DNA from: Deltaproteobacteria bacterium CG_4_9_14_3_um_filter_63_12
Lineage (GTDB): Bacteria; Myxococcota_A; Bradymonadia; UBA4248; UM-FILTER-63-12
Direction of reading: 5' to 3'
Assembly: GCA_002789955.1 (NCBI GenBank)
Contig: PFUG01000114.1
Location: 1 to 33,558, forward strand
Length of the DNA stretch: 33,558 nt
Shown here: positions 28,585 through 33,558 of the stretch, one piece after another
How positions within the stretch are numbered: the first letter of the stretch is position 1
Layout of the letters: every line of letters begins with the position of its first letter
Position numbers and translations under genes: made by a program
Notes under the pieces: generated by a model
What the model saw: only the letters and a program-made list of their open reading frames with translations
Database searches by the model: none
What the model was told of the DNA's origin: nothing

Positions 28585-28783
28585 GGTTGTGCGGCCGTTG
28601 GTTGCCTGCGTCGATCCTCGGCGGTTGGGGGTGAACCTGAACGGACGCAAAATGCCCTCCATAAGCCGCTGACGCTGAGAGCAGCAATGGGAGCGCCGGC
28701 GGCCCGCCGGCACGCATGAACGAATTGCTGCCGCACACGGAGCCCATCAGCGAGCCAAGTGCAGTCGCGAGTCGCCCCAGGTT
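28585..28783. repeat. Dispersed repeat, full copy A (199 bp)
   Basis: It begins GGTTGTGCGGCCGTTGGTTG and ends GAGTCGCCCCAGGTT. It matches copy B (28922-29120) almost base for base over the same 199 bp. It contains the 17-nt palindrome GCCGGCGGCCCGCCGGC at 28695-28711. Frames across it on the minus strand are open but are translated repeat, not genes. Confidence 0.85.
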
Positions 28784-28790
28784 CCACTCC

Positions 28791-28855
28791 AAAAGCCGCT
28801 GACGCCGAGAGCAGCAATGGGAGCGCCGGCGGCCCGCCGGCACGCATGAACGAAC
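28791..28855. repeat. Dispersed repeat, truncated internal copy
   Basis: About 60 bp starting AAAAGCCGCTGACGCCGAGA repeats the central part of copies A and B, including the GCCGGCGGCCCGCCGGC palindrome (28825-28841). It joins directly to element C1, so both of its ends are truncated compared with A and B. Confidence 0.85.
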
Positions 28856-28918
28856 GAGTCGCCCCAGGTTCCACCTGGGGCTGGGGATTGTTCGGCCCCC
28901 GAGGGGCCGATGCCGAGG
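28856..28918. repeat. Repeat element C, copy 1 (63 bp)
   Basis: It runs from GAGTCGCCCCAGGTT to TGCCGAGG and recurs at 29106-29168. It contains the hairpin CGGCCCC (28893-28899), CGA, GGGGCCG (28903-28909). Confidence 0.85.
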
Positions 28919-28921
28919 GTC

Positions 28922-29120
28922 GGTTGTGCGGCCGTTGGTTGCCTGTGTCGATCCTCGGCGGTGGGGGTGAAACTGAACGGACGCAAAATGCCCTCCCAAA
29001 GCCGCTGACGCCGAGAGCAGCAATGGGAGCGCCGGCGGCCCGCCGGCACGTATGAACGAATCGCTGCCGCACCACGGAGCCCATCAGCGGGCCAAGTGCA
29101 GTCGCGAGTCGCCCCAGGTT
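28922..29120. repeat. Dispersed repeat, full copy B (199 bp)
   Basis: This is the second full copy of the element at 28585-28783, with scattered substitutions. Its palindrome is at 29031-29047. Unlike copy A, it runs without a break into element C2. Confidence 0.85.
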
Positions 29121-29168
29121 GCACCTTGGGCTGGGGATTGTTCGGCCCCCGTGGGGCCCATGCCGAGG
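29106..29168. repeat. Repeat element C, copy 2 (63 bp)
   Basis: It matches 28856-28918 with a few differences and overlaps the end of copy B by the shared GAGTCGCCCCAGGTT. A plus C is probably the complete ancestral unit of about 247 bp. Confidence 0.8.
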
Positions 29169-29241
29169 ACCGTTCTTTATAGATAGATAGCGCGCGACCA
29201 TTCTCGGCGAAGTGTGGTTGGCTGGGCGCGACACCCCGACC

Positions 29242-29345
29242 TCACCCCAACCCCGACCTCCTCCACCACCCTCAGCTCGCCGGACTTCACACCCTCGAAC
29301 ACCATCGCCCCCAACGACAATTCGCGGATGCCGACGCTCATTAGT
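29242..29345 (-). pseudogene. Decayed second copy of the hsdR 3' end
   Basis: This stretch matches the last roughly 30 codons of the hsdR gene (31012-31105) in the same orientation. Both contain CCACCACCCTCAG and the exact string CCCTCGAACACCATCGCC at nearly the same distance from the stop position (50 versus 55 bp). On the minus strand it reads AMVFEGVKSGELRVVEE, against AMVFEGEESGALRVVAE in HsdR. A 5-bp difference shifts the frame past the stop. It is a non-functional remnant and forms a direct repeat around the toxin-antitoxin-like module. Confidence 0.75.
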
Positions 29346-29456
29346 CGCACAAACGTTGGGGAAAATTGGCTGCGCCGACACGGGTTGACGTGTTTTGACC
29401 AGAACAGGTACCGTTTCTTCGATTCTGAGAAGTCGTGACACCCGAACTTGCAACTG

Positions 29457-29475
29457 TTAAGTTGGAGCTTAAGTT
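29457..29475 (+). promoter_or_regulatory. Direct TTAAGTT repeats over the toxin ribosome site
   Basis: TTAAGTT occurs at 29457-29463 and again at 29469-29475, 12 bp apart, directly before the TTG start at 29476. The ribosome site GGAG (29464-29467) lies between them. The position suits an operator for the Xre antitoxin of the operon. A possible promoter further up uses TTGAC motifs at 29385 and 29395, but no good -10 follows. Confidence 0.45.
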
Positions 29476-29883
29476 TTGTCGACGCCGAACACACCGAAGG
29501 TTGTCACAACGGGTGATTCCCTCACGTTGGAGTGGGCGTTTACCGCAACTGGAAAGTATCCAGCTGAGGATTTTATCAACGGACTGCCAACAGGGTTTGA
29601 ATCGGAAAGAATAGGGTTGTTCCGTCTTTTCGAGAAGTTGGCTAGCACAGGGATAATCCGAAACAAGGAGCTTTTTAAGAAGGTCGAGGGCACACAGCTT
29701 TTTGAATTCAAAAGAGGCCAACTTCGTGTGCTGTGCGCATACAACCCCCAGCGACGTGGAACCATGTTCCTCCTTGCAGGGGAAATAAAGAAGACAGGAA
29801 AACTGTCCCCTTCAACGATCACTCGCGCGCAAGACGTGCTCGATCACATGGTCTCACTGGAAGAGGCGGAGACGAAACCATGA
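29476..29883 (+). CDS. HigB/RelE-type toxin (Gp49-like)
   Basis: The protein is 135 residues with a TTG start at 29476, with GGAG 8 nt upstream. The pattern RIGLFRLFEKLASTG, LFKKVEGTQLFEFKRGQLRVLCAY, TMFLLAGEIKKTGKLS and ITRAQDVL matches the phage Gp49-like/HigB branch of the RelE superfamily. Members cut mRNA on the ribosome; the basic residues of the FEFKRGQLRVL strand and the KKTGK segment fit that. Its stop overlaps the antitoxin start by four bases (ATGA). The toxin-first order is typical of higBA. The gene is visibly richer in A and T than the rest of the window, suggesting recent acquisition. Confidence 0.88.
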   Translation: MSTPNTPKVVTTGDSLTLEWAFTATGKYPAEDFINGLPTGFESERIGLFRLFEKLASTGIIRNKELFKKVEGTQLFEFKRGQLRVLCAYNPQRRGTMFLLAGEIKKTGKLSPSTITRAQDVLDHMVSLEEAETKP

Positions 29884-30434
29884 GCCAAAAGAGCACCACA
29901 ATCGAAGACTTCCTCATCGATGATGAATCCAAAGCACTCTATGCTGAGGAAACTCTTGTCATTGATGCTCTTGAAACCGTTTGTGAGTGGATGGAAGCAG
30001 CGAACTGCAGCCGGGCGGAGCTTGCTCGTCGTTTAGGGATATCCGCGGCTGCGGTCACGTTGATGTTCAAGGCTGAAACCCTGGGTCTCAGGCGACTCGC
30101 TCGAATTGCGCATGTCCTGGGTGGCGTGGCGAAGGTTGAGATTTGCAGGGTAGAGGCGCAAGAGCAGTCCAATATCTGCGAAGATGAGCAATCAAGAGAG
30201 AGGACTGCTTGTTCGGAACCCAAGTACTTCGTCGATTGCCAAGACCTCCCCAATGACCTCTTCATTTCCAAGCACACGGTCCTGAACTGCAATCAACAAG
30301 TCACGCTCGCCCAAGCTGCCCACGCATACTTTGGACCTCGTAAAACGCTACACTCTGCTTCGACGACGACGCGACTCGATGAAGCGAATTCGGGTGGGCT
30401 CACAATGGGTCGACGAGTGGAGGATGCTGCATGA
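29880..30434 (+). CDS. Xre-family antitoxin with long C-terminal extension
   Basis: The protein is 184 residues. Residues about 28-90 are a Cro/Xre helix-turn-helix: TVCEWMEAANCSRAELARRL, then GISAAAVTLMFK and LGLRRLARIAHVLGG. This should neutralise the toxin and repress the operon. Usual HigA-type antitoxins are about 90-120 residues; here some 85-90 further residues follow, including EPKYFVDCQDLPNDLFISKH, of no recognised family. A frameshift that lengthened the tail cannot be excluded. The start overlaps the toxin stop and the stop overlaps the next start, both as ATGA, so the three genes are translationally linked. Confidence 0.82.
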   Translation: MSQKSTTIEDFLIDDESKALYAEETLVIDALETVCEWMEAANCSRAELARRLGISAAAVTLMFKAETLGLRRLARIAHVLGGVAKVEICRVEAQEQSNICEDEQSRERTACSEPKYFVDCQDLPNDLFISKHTVLNCNQQVTLAQAAHAYFGPRKTLHSASTTTRLDEANSGGLTMGRRVEDAA

Positions 30435-30940
30435 CCTTGAAGTGCGATTGGTTCGTGCTGTGCCAGCAGGTGATCTGGGACAAGGGGACGGATGCCCTTA
30501 CCCTCGTGAACTGTCTTGAGCAAGTCACGAGCTCAAGCTTCCCCTCACTTCATCACGGGTTCGCGTTTGCGGCCCGGTTTACTTGGGCAGGCGAGCCGCT
30601 GAAAGAACCTCTCGATACACACTTCAAGCTCGTGCGTTGGTCGGAGATGGACGACAAACAAACGACCGTCATCGAGCTAGATGGACGTCTGGAGCCGGAA
30701 ACTACTCTCGCGAGGGTGTTTACCAACTTCAGTTTCATGAAGTTGAATCGACCCGAAAGGGTTTGGTTCGGGCTCGAATCTCGGGTTGGTGGAGGTCGTT
30801 GGCGAAAAGGTCCAGCGGTCTCTGTCGACGTCAAAGAGATGGACAAAGGGCTTGCCGTTCGGGTTCAACGAGGGATGGAGCGGCTTCGCAAAAGCATGGA
30901 AGAGGAGTTGGCTACAACCCTTCCACCCGACTCCGACTGA
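30431..30940 (+). CDS. DUF6941-like protein, third gene of the toxin-antitoxin operon
   Basis: The protein is 169 residues. CDWFVLCQQVIWDKGTDALT, then LVNCLEQV, FPSLHHGFAFAARFTWAGEP, FTNFSFMKLNRPERVWFGLE and GGRWRKGPAVSVDVKEM follow the layout of DUF6941-type beta-sandwich proteins (C-D-x-x-x-x-d-x-x-G-k-l-s-l, then F-P, then a strand ending in V). The match is by pattern only. The C-terminus is a charged helix (VQRGMERLRKSMEEEL). ATGA overlap with the antitoxin ties it to the module. It stands where a SecB-like chaperone stands in toxin-antitoxin-chaperone systems, but it does not look like SecB. It is convergent with hsdR. Confidence 0.65.
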   Translation: MTLKCDWFVLCQQVIWDKGTDALTLVNCLEQVTSSSFPSLHHGFAFAARFTWAGEPLKEPLDTHFKLVRWSEMDDKQTTVIELDGRLEPETTLARVFTNFSFMKLNRPERVWFGLESRVGGGRWRKGPAVSVDVKEMDKGLAVRVQRGMERLRKSMEEELATTLPPDSD

Positions 30941-31011: not shown

Positions 31012-33558
31012 TCACCCCAACACCTCGACCAGCTCCGCCACCACCCTCAGCGCGCCCGACTCCTCCCCCTCGAACACCATCGCCTCGAACGATGGCTCGA
31101 ATGACACCGGCCTCAACACGATCCGCGTATGCCGCCACTCTTCCGTCTCACGCTCGAGCATCTCGGACTCGTAGAGCTTCACGGTAAAAGTCCCCAGCTC
31201 GGGGTCGGCGATGTCCTCGTGCTGCGCCAGCACGATCTGGCCTTCCCACGTCCCCACAGCCTCCAACCGCCACACACACCACGCCCCGTTCGGGATTCGA
31301 CGGTTCATCGACTCCCCCACCACCTGGGCCACGAACAACCCCAGCGCCGGCTTGGTGCGGCCGTTCAAGGCGACCCATTCGACGCCTGACGGGTTCACGA
31401 CCTCCTCGTGCTGCAGCACCTCGCCGACGGCCTGGGCGTCGGAGAACCGCCCCGCGGCCACCTTCAGCGTGTAGAGGGGAACCGCGTTGACGAAGGGAAG
31501 AACGTCCTCGAGCGGCACCCGCTCGAACGGCAACACCTTGGCGCCAACTTCGTCGTCCTTCTTCCGGTCCTTCTGATTACTGTCCGTCTTATTACTATTG
31601 ATGCGCGCGTACACCTCGTTCAGCAGTCGCGTCGTCAGGAACTTTCGCAGCTCGGTGTCCTGGAAGAAGAGCGTGACGAAATCGCCGTTCTCCTCCAGGT
31701 GCTCCGTCATCTTGTCCTCGAGCGCCGGGTTGAAGATGTGCGCGAAGTTGGCCTTGTCGTTGGCCTCGGCCCCGAGCCGCACCTCGTCGGAGCTCACCAG
31801 CGCATCGGCGACCCCGCTCAGCGTGTTGTTGATGTGGTCAGGCAGGTTCAGCCCAAAGCGCTGATTGAGCGCGTCGATGATCGTCGAGAGCAGCACCTTG
31901 GGGCTCGCCCCAGCACCAGTCCCCGTCGCTCCCGGTCCCGTGAGCGCTCCGCCCTCGTCCTGCTGCAAGTCCAGGTCGCCTTCGGCGTCTTTCTGCAGCT
32001 TCAGGGACGCCAGGATCACATCGTCGTCGAGGTCGAGGGCCCCGCCGGTCTCGGGCCTCGGCAGCTTCGTGAGCAGCATGCGCCCAAAGGCGTAGAGCTT
32101 CTCCAACGCTGGATCCTGAAAGGGCACGATCTGGGCGAGGAAGCTGTAGAGGTTCTTGTAGGCGACGAGCCGGCTCCGAAACGCCTCCTGCAGCTCGACG
32201 CGCTCGTCGTCGTTGCCGCCCAGAGCTTTGAAGCGGTCGACGGCGGGATCGAGCCAGCCGTTCAGCTTCGCGTGGCTCGATGGGCTCACGGTGTTGGGGA
32301 GCTGGTAGAAGACTGCGGCAAACCCATTGACCTCGGACTCGGAAAAGACTTGAGCCTCAGCCAGCTCGTGCTGCAGGTCATAGAGGCGCTGCGGGTCTAC
32401 CTCGTCCGCGGTGGTCGTCGTCTCATAGTAGTCCTGGAACGACGCCAGGATCCCCTCTCGCTCGTTCACGAAGTCCAGGACGAAGGTCTGCTCCTTGCCC
32501 GCCGCCATGCGATTGAGCCGCGACAGCGTCTGCACCGCCTGAATGCCCGAGAGCCGCTTGTCCACGTACATCGCGCAGAGCAGCGGCTGGTCGAAGCCCG
32601 TCTGATACTTGTTCGCCACCAGCAGCACCTGGTAGCCGTCGGAGGCGAACTTCTCCGGCAGCTCGCCCTCCTTGATCCCCTCGTTCATGCCGACCTCGGT
32701 GTAGGTCGCCATGGGCGTGTCGGCGTCTGTGACCTCGCCCGAGAACGCGACGAGGCAGCGGATGTTGGTGTAGCCCATCTCGGCGATGTAGCCGTCGAAG
32801 CTGAGCTTGTACTTCACCGCCTGGAGCCTAGACCCCGTGACGACCATCGCCTTCGCCTTGCCGCCGAGCTGGTGGGCGACCGTGCTGCGGAAGTGCTCGA
32901 TGATGAGCTGGGTCTTCTGCGAGATGTTCGTGGGGTGCAGGTTGACGTACTTCGCCAACGCCGAGGACGCCTTGCGCTTGTCGAGCTGCGGATCGTCCGC
33001 CACCGCTTTGGCCAGCTTGAAGAAGCGGTTGTAGGTCGTGTAGCCCAGCAGCACGTCGAGGATGAACTTCTCCTCGATGGCCTGTCGCATGGAGTACAGA
33101 TGGAAAGGCGCCGGCTTTCCGTCTGGCCCTCTGTGGCCGAACATCTCGAGGGTCTTGTGCTTCGGGGTCGCCGTGAAGGCGAAAAAGCTCATATTGGGCT
33201 GCGGCCCGCGCAACAGGGCTTTGCGGAGGGCGAGCTGGTCGGGGGTCGAGAGCTCCTCCCCCTCATCCCAATCGAGCTGCTGCTCGCTGAGCTTCTCGTC
33301 CAGGCTGCTGTCGGCCAGCATCTCCTTGACGTTTACCGCCATCTCGCCGCTCTGCGACGAGTGGGCCTCGTCGACGATGAGCGCATAGCGACGGTCCGGA
33401 AGCGCCTCGACCTTGCCCTGAATGAACCCGAACTTGTGGATCGTCGAGATGATGATCGGCGTGCCGGTGGCCAACGCCGCGGCCAATTGCTCCGAGTTCT
33501 GGTCGATCTTCTCGACGACCCCGTCCTTGTGGTCGAACTGGTAGATGGTGTTCTGGAG
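31012..33558 (-). CDS. hsdR: Type I restriction enzyme R subunit with C-terminal S24-like domain (5' end outside window)
   Basis: This is the ATP-dependent translocase/nuclease subunit of a type I restriction system. The frame stays open to the window edge, so the N-terminal nuclease domain and Walker A are missing here; about 848 residues are visible. Motor motifs are VDEAHSSQSGE (DEAx box), FAFTATPKHKTLEMFG and TGFDQPLLCAMYVDKRLSG followed by QTLSRLNR (motifs V and VI). A Gly/Ala-rich linker near 31900-31950 follows. The last 110-130 residues resemble a LexA/S24 peptidase: LFVAQVVGESMNRRIPNGAW (Ser codon 31309-31311) and, 44 residues on, GTFTVKLYES (Lys codon 31177-31179). HsdS and HsdM are not in the window. 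Confidence 0.9.
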   Translation of the reverse strand, partial: LQNTIYQFDHKDGVVEKIDQNSEQLAAALATGTPIIISTIHKFGFIQGKVEALPDRRYALIVDEAHSSQSGEMAVNVKEMLADSSLDEKLSEQQLDWDEGEELSTPDQLALRKALLRGPQPNMSFFAFTATPKHKTLEMFGHRGPDGKPAPFHLYSMRQAIEEKFILDVLLGYTTYNRFFKLAKAVADDPQLDKRKASSALAKYVNLHPTNISQKTQLIIEHFRSTVAHQLGGKAKAMVVTGSRLQAVKYKLSFDGYIAEMGYTNIRCLVAFSGEVTDADTPMATYTEVGMNEGIKEGELPEKFASDGYQVLLVANKYQTGFDQPLLCAMYVDKRLSGIQAVQTLSRLNRMAAGKEQTFVLDFVNEREGILASFQDYYETTTTADEVDPQRLYDLQHELAEAQVFSESEVNGFAAVFYQLPNTVSPSSHAKLNGWLDPAVDRFKALGGNDDERVELQEAFRSRLVAYKNLYSFLAQIVPFQDPALEKLYAFGRMLLTKLPRPETGGALDLDDDVILASLKLQKDAEGDLDLQQDEGGALTGPGATGTGAGASPKVLLSTIIDALNQRFGLNLPDHINNTLSGVADALVSSDEVRLGAEANDKANFAHIFNPALEDKMTEHLEENGDFVTLFFQDTELRKFLTTRLLNEVYARINSNKTDSNQKDRKKDDEVGAKVLPFERVPLEDVLPFVNAVPLYTLKVAAGRFSDAQAVGEVLQHEEVVNPSGVEWVALNGRTKPALGLFVAQVVGESMNRRIPNGAWCVWRLEAVGTWEGQIVLAQHEDIADPELGTFTVKLYESEMLERETEEWRHTRIVLRPVSFEPSFEAMVFEGEESGALRVVAELVEVLG

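Follow-up and report, generated by a model that had tools for sequence, protein, structure and literature searches.

A toxin–antitoxin operon with a DUF6941-like gene in the position held elsewhere by SecB-like chaperone genes

The operon and its surroundings

The window, which is the whole 33,558 nt stretch of contig PFUG01000114.1 that was analysed, contains at positions 29476–30940 three complete genes in the order toxin, antitoxin and third gene. These genes and their associated features are as follows.

29451–29464, no strand: palindrome CAACT-GTTA-AGTTG just 5′ of the start of the toxin gene; candidate operator through which the Xre antitoxin would autoregulate the operon
29476–29883, + strand: toxin, Gp49/HigB-like (RelE superfamily), 135 aa, TTG start (PF05973, E-value 9e-6)
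29880–30434, + strand: Xre antitoxin, 184 aa (HTH_26, E-value 2e-5; HTH_3, E-value 3e-5; residues 37–81)
29880–30143, + strand: antitoxin core, Xre/Cro HTH domain (HTH_26/HTH_3), residues 1–88
30144–30434 (stop included), + strand: antitoxin tail, residues 89–184, 96 aa, ending -EDAA; presumed chaperone-addiction region
30225–30335, + strand: tail segment (residues 116–152) resembling residues 7–43 (strands 1–2) of the third protein
30431–30940, + strand: third gene, encoding a DUF6941-like beta-sandwich protein of 169 aa (PF22091, E-value 5e-5); proposed non-SecB chaperone or antitoxin stabiliser

The toxin scores 26 bits against the Pfam Gp49 model, above the curated cut-off of 23.9, and its TTG start has a GGAG sequence 9 nt upstream. 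The third protein matches DUF6941 over residues 7–115 with 24.1 bits, just below the curated cut-off of 27. Both the toxin/antitoxin and the antitoxin/third gene junctions are ATGA overlaps, and the three genes are translationally coupled. The original prediction of a three-gene operon encoding a HigB-type toxin, an Xre antitoxin and a DUF6941-like protein, with ATGA at both junctions, held, as did that of an extra antitoxin tail, whose length (given as 85–90 residues) was slightly understated. This tail has no database relative and is of odd composition, with five cysteines; nevertheless it reads as coding sequence, since its G+C content at the three codon positions (0.59/0.46/0.56) matches that of the core (0.61/0.43/0.55). 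The palindrome is the sole match in the window at one mismatch or fewer, with 0.54 expected by chance, and thus constitutes only weak evidence.

The G+C content, 53 % in the operon as opposed to 63 % over the window, points to acquisition. A gene resembling the R subunit of type I restriction systems (HsdR-like) is convergent with the operon and ends at 31012. We note that a 79 nt direct repeat (29239–29317 and 31014–31092, 78 % identical) flanks the operon and resembles the 3′ end of the hsdR-like gene; the layout could be read as that of a cassette inserted at the end of this gene, with a partial copy of the gene end alongside. Other non-coding direct repeats of 46–111 nt, in several copies that are 72–96 % identical, occupy positions 28585–29168, between a phosphoglycerate mutase-like gene and the operon. 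Rfam gave no match.

DUF6941 and its alternatives behind toxin–antitoxin pairs

When 379 genomes from the window's own phylum were searched, relatives of the third protein were recovered at 30–45 % identity, and all nine close relatives with readable upstream DNA (the window included) are encoded by the third genes of toxin–antitoxin operons; a further one, in genome G311, was left out of this count because its locus stops at the contig edge. Three kinds of toxin–antitoxin pair precede DUF6941, namely Gp49/Xre, HigB/HigA and DUF4258/MqsA, with family support from HigB (PF09907, E-value 3e-19), DUF4258 (E-value 1e-5) and, slightly below its cut-off, the MqsA-like antitoxin (TIGR03830, E-value 2e-16). 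The HigB-HigA-DUF6941 arrangement was seen in G197, G171, G324, G138, G209, G081 and G291, and in the last of these a DUF4258 toxin, an MqsA-like antitoxin and a second DUF6941 gene lie immediately before it, so that two modules stand in tandem. The overlap with the antitoxin gene is 4 nt in eight of the nine operons and 11 nt in the other, and in every one the antitoxin carries a tail. Recurrence of this third gene at an equivalent position after toxin–antitoxin pairs of other genomes puts the arrangement beyond chance. The sampling covers one phylum only. Not all loci are intact: that of G138 looks decayed, with a broken toxin frame, as does a more distant member in G190, in which the toxin is truncated and DUF6941 internally deleted.

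No relatives of DUF6941 were found in viral contigs, phages or plasmids, a contig scan with a narrower alignment returned no additional genomes, and DUF6941 is not named in the open-access literature that was searched. A branch of solo DUF6941 genes is separate from the toxin–antitoxin-linked branch; its members lie beside MopE-like and often MnmE genes, with no toxin–antitoxin genes nearby, and those at L042–L053 and L003–L006 come from a single family within the phylum. SecB, too, exists in general and toxin–antitoxin-dedicated forms. The genome of the window also encodes, on another contig (C179; L121, 7809–8717), a 302 aa protein with repeated DUF6941-like sequence, to which no toxin–antitoxin pair is linked in the available DNA. 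The public contig CAMAXZ010000024.1 (L028), titled as a Klebsiella pneumoniae metagenome-assembled genome, matches G171 of the window's phylum, and its title looks wrong.

The phylum contains few homologues of the window toxin, and those at L060, L061 and L062 are all in three-gene operons. In G112 (L060) and G197 (L062) the order is Gp49, Xre and a third gene, and a profile built from these two third genes and seven similar ones has as its best PDB match Rv1957 (E-value 3e-11), the SecB-like chaperone of the M. tuberculosis TAC (toxin–antitoxin–chaperone) system. The Pfam SecB model found nothing in these genomes and, given the match of our profile to Rv1957, is evidently too narrow here. The core of the window antitoxin is 43 % identical to the L060 antitoxin over residues 2–88 (E-value 2e-23), and no similarity to the SecB-coupled antitoxins was found past residue 88 of 184. 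DUF6941 thus fills, by sequence, the operon slot held by SecB-like chaperones behind the same toxin family, and serves other toxin–antitoxin families as well. The third gene behind the Gp49/HTH pair of L061 is YbjN/CesT-like, with a weak Pfam match (E-value 0.0025), so that one toxin family occurs with three alternative third genes: DUF6941, SecB-like and, on this weak match, YbjN/CesT-like. Of these families, the chaperone role is established for SecB and likely for YbjN/CesT. At L061/L120 (G272) the YbjN/CesT-like gene that follows the Gp49 toxin and HTH antitoxin genes may represent yet another chaperone class in this slot, on the strength of the weak Pfam match alone.

A separate arrangement was noted on a plasmid of Thermus thermophilus JL-18 (L110, 1541–2896), where a RelE/ParE toxin and an HTH antitoxin ending in -WAA are followed by a SecB-like protein. 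The latter has an N-terminal HTH and is annotated only as an HTH protein, and the operon lies between DUF1156 and Swt1-HEPN genes.

The antitoxin tail and the third protein

The length of HigA varies with the presence of the third gene, being about 165–211 aa when DUF6941 follows and mostly 115–139 aa in two-gene operons. At least 40 aa extend past the HigA core in all eight DUF6941-linked proteins and in only 3 of 23 two-gene ones (Fisher's P 2e-5, which is optimistic, since related genomes are not independent). The clear exception is G172, where HigA has a long tail and there is no third gene. In the predicted HigA model a folded core is followed by a two-helix segment, and the last 24 residues have pLDDT values below 50. 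By eye this two-helix start of the tail looks like a ribbon-helix-helix, and the tails of the MqsA-like and Gp49-type antitoxins are without such a segment.

All antitoxins linked to DUF6941 have a C-terminal alanine, six of them ending in -AA, and the window antitoxin ends in -EDAA, at most a possible ClpXP-type degron. The -AA end was rejected as a mark of three-gene systems because two-gene HigA proteins often have it too; moreover, the ATGA overlap forces the last codon of the antitoxin to end in A.

The window DUF6941 protein is predicted to be a beta-sandwich of nine strands with a C-terminal helix, and the model is confident (pLDDT 92.5). Its PDB matches are generic beta-sandwiches with TM scores below 0.5, among them Unc119 and the carbohydrate-binding domain of Wzt, and SecB is absent from the 50 that were listed. 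Kinship of DUF6941 with SecB was rejected, since alignment to the SecB-like proteins with hhalign gave a probability of 0.4 %, and the fold alone gives no indication of a chaperone. The model has better matches (TM 0.56–0.66) among functionally uncharacterized phage proteins; one of these, from Anoxybacillus phage A403, is likely to be the 134 aa protein encoded at 35864–36268 near the integrase. PHROG matches were weak.

In the window the tail resembles its neighbour: residues 116–152 of the antitoxin and 7–43 of the third protein are identical at 12 of 37 positions without gaps (shuffle P 7e-4; leave-one-out profile P 0.001). A shuffle test over nine systems gave a combined P of 0.005 that is carried by the window. 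With leave-one-out profiles, one of the three settings gave P under 0.02 for three of nine systems and for none of seven controls, but two of these three hits fall within the helical region of HigA. As a general feature the likeness is thus unsupported beyond the window, other systems giving weak signs at most, and a recent gene duplication is also unsupported, the DNA identity being just 43 %. The likeness suggests, without demonstrating it, that the tail either pairs with the first beta-hairpin of the third protein or mimics it, a possibility inferred from sequence alone.

A proposed mechanism, its rivals and known systems

We consider it likely that the operon is a type II toxin–antitoxin module governed by a dedicated third protein other than SecB, in the manner of TAC systems, with DUF6941 replacing SecB as the stabiliser that binds the antitoxin tail. 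The layout, the homologies, the occupation of the SecB slot and the covariation of tail and third gene are shown; the function is inferred, and there are no binding, toxicity or stability data. In this scheme the tail would render the antitoxin unstable or aggregation-prone, and its -AA end would be exposed to ClpXP-like proteolysis. DUF6941 would bind the tail, perhaps through beta-strand pairing, and the antitoxin would stay active; were DUF6941 lost or titrated away, possibly by a phage protein, the antitoxin would be degraded and the RelE-like toxin would halt translation. Tail instability, protection by the third protein, proteolysis upon its withdrawal and toxin release are all inferred by analogy with TAC biology (PMC5105189, PMC8165232, PMC11618068), and the dependence of the antitoxin on the third protein through its tail is likewise an inference for which no assay data exist.

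The third protein could instead be a co-antitoxin or a ligand-sensing regulator that acts directly on the toxin or the HTH core, with no tail chaperone being involved. In favour of this, ligand or protein binding is common among small beta-sandwich domains, and the PDB matches are of that generic kind. However, DUF6941 serves three toxin–antitoxin families with different toxins and antitoxin cores, so that binding to a common toxin or core surface is improbable, and it is the tail that covaries with DUF6941; we therefore regard this explanation as unlikely. Less likely still is that the tail is a second DNA-binding or dimerization part and the third gene merely cargo of a mobile or defence cassette. 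The ribbon-helix-helix-like start of the HigA tails, the two-helix tail segment of G172 in the absence of a third gene, and the acquired look of the window cassette (its G+C content and the flanking hsdR-like repeat) are consistent with this view, but nine independent-looking operons keep the order, overlap and pairing, and the helical segment is, by eye, missing from the other two kinds of tail. Finally, the long tail might be the product of mis-annotation, for example of intergenic DNA read through a frameshift. This idea draws on the tail's lack of relatives and odd, cysteine-bearing composition; it is all but excluded by the codon-position composition shared with the core, by open frames joined through ATGA and by the tails of related operons.

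The tail-stabiliser reading thus remains the preferred one. The original prediction that the layout is TAC-like with a third protein of another family is supported, on the basis that DUF6941 stands behind three toxin–antitoxin families, that SecB versions of the same Gp49/Xre pair exist and that long tail and third gene co-occur. The absence of the third gene beside homologous toxin–antitoxin pairs, half of the condition under which it was to be refuted, does not count against it: those homologues that have only two genes mostly lack the tail as well. A bolder reading, which is no more than possible, is that chaperone addiction has a second class of partner in DUF6941, which is structurally unrelated to SecB and was swapped in for it, that the window tail at least imitates the first beta-hairpin of its partner, and that phage or stress proteins competing for this surface release the toxin.

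A role in phage defence, also raised in that prediction, is plausible but unshown; protection is inferred, and the support is circumstantial, coming only from defence genes that adjoin three loci. In G081 (L117, 7934–17766) the genes brxE, brxA, brxB, brxC and pglX come after HigB-HigA-DUF6941 in the same orientation, and the module may be part of a BREX operon. A type IIG enzyme lies upstream of the module in G291, and the HsdR-like gene adjoins that of the window. The remaining loci, which were read by eye without a systematic scan, have no obvious defence neighbours. HigBAC and CmdTAC are known TAC systems in which phage is sensed through the chaperone, and a new chaperone class would therefore mean a new sensing surface.

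The presence of DUF6941 in a SecB-like slot suggests that toxin–antitoxin modules have another kind of protein guardian, unrelated to the first. If DUF6941 does the job of SecB with another fold, chaperone addiction would rank as a general principle, and a domain whose function is unknown would gain a testable role, for which the exchange of SecB and DUF6941 behind homologous Gp49/Xre cores offers a ready-made natural experiment.

Among known systems, the TY-chaperones (YbjN/CesT) of conflict systems are comparable in that different peptide-binding chaperones are described as substituting for each other within one gene neighbourhood in ARG systems (PMC9503650), and the L061 third gene is similar to them (weak match); they differ from DUF6941 in fold, and that report is not about HigBA-like modules. 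Two-gene HigBA and Gp49/HTH modules share the toxin and antitoxin-core families but have no third gene and usually no tail. The Gp49-Xre-SecB operons of G112 and G197 have a homologous toxin and a related antitoxin core, and differ in their shorter, unrelated tail and SecB-like third gene. A further comparison is with the TAC systems themselves (M. tuberculosis HigB1-HigA1-SecB(TA), Rv1955–Rv1957; HigBAC; CmdTAC), in which chaperone addiction is a property of the C-terminal tail that can be transferred from one toxin–antitoxin family to another (PMC5105189) and the antitoxins have -AA ends (PMC11618068). The window module shares with them the gene order and a RelE-superfamily toxin, and the DUF6941 modules share an HTH antitoxin that is extended variably at its C terminus, the use of a single third-gene family by several toxin–antitoxin families, and -AA-type ends. 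The window antitoxin, which extends past the core seen in two-gene relatives, meets the TAC extension criterion. In the open-access literature searched, chaperone-controlled modules are defined by SecB-like chaperones, a criterion that the window DUF6941 fails, being a beta-sandwich that has no profile similarity to SecB. The module probably works like TAC, yet is no TAC member by the SecB criterion, and what is new in it is the DUF6941 partner in place of SecB.
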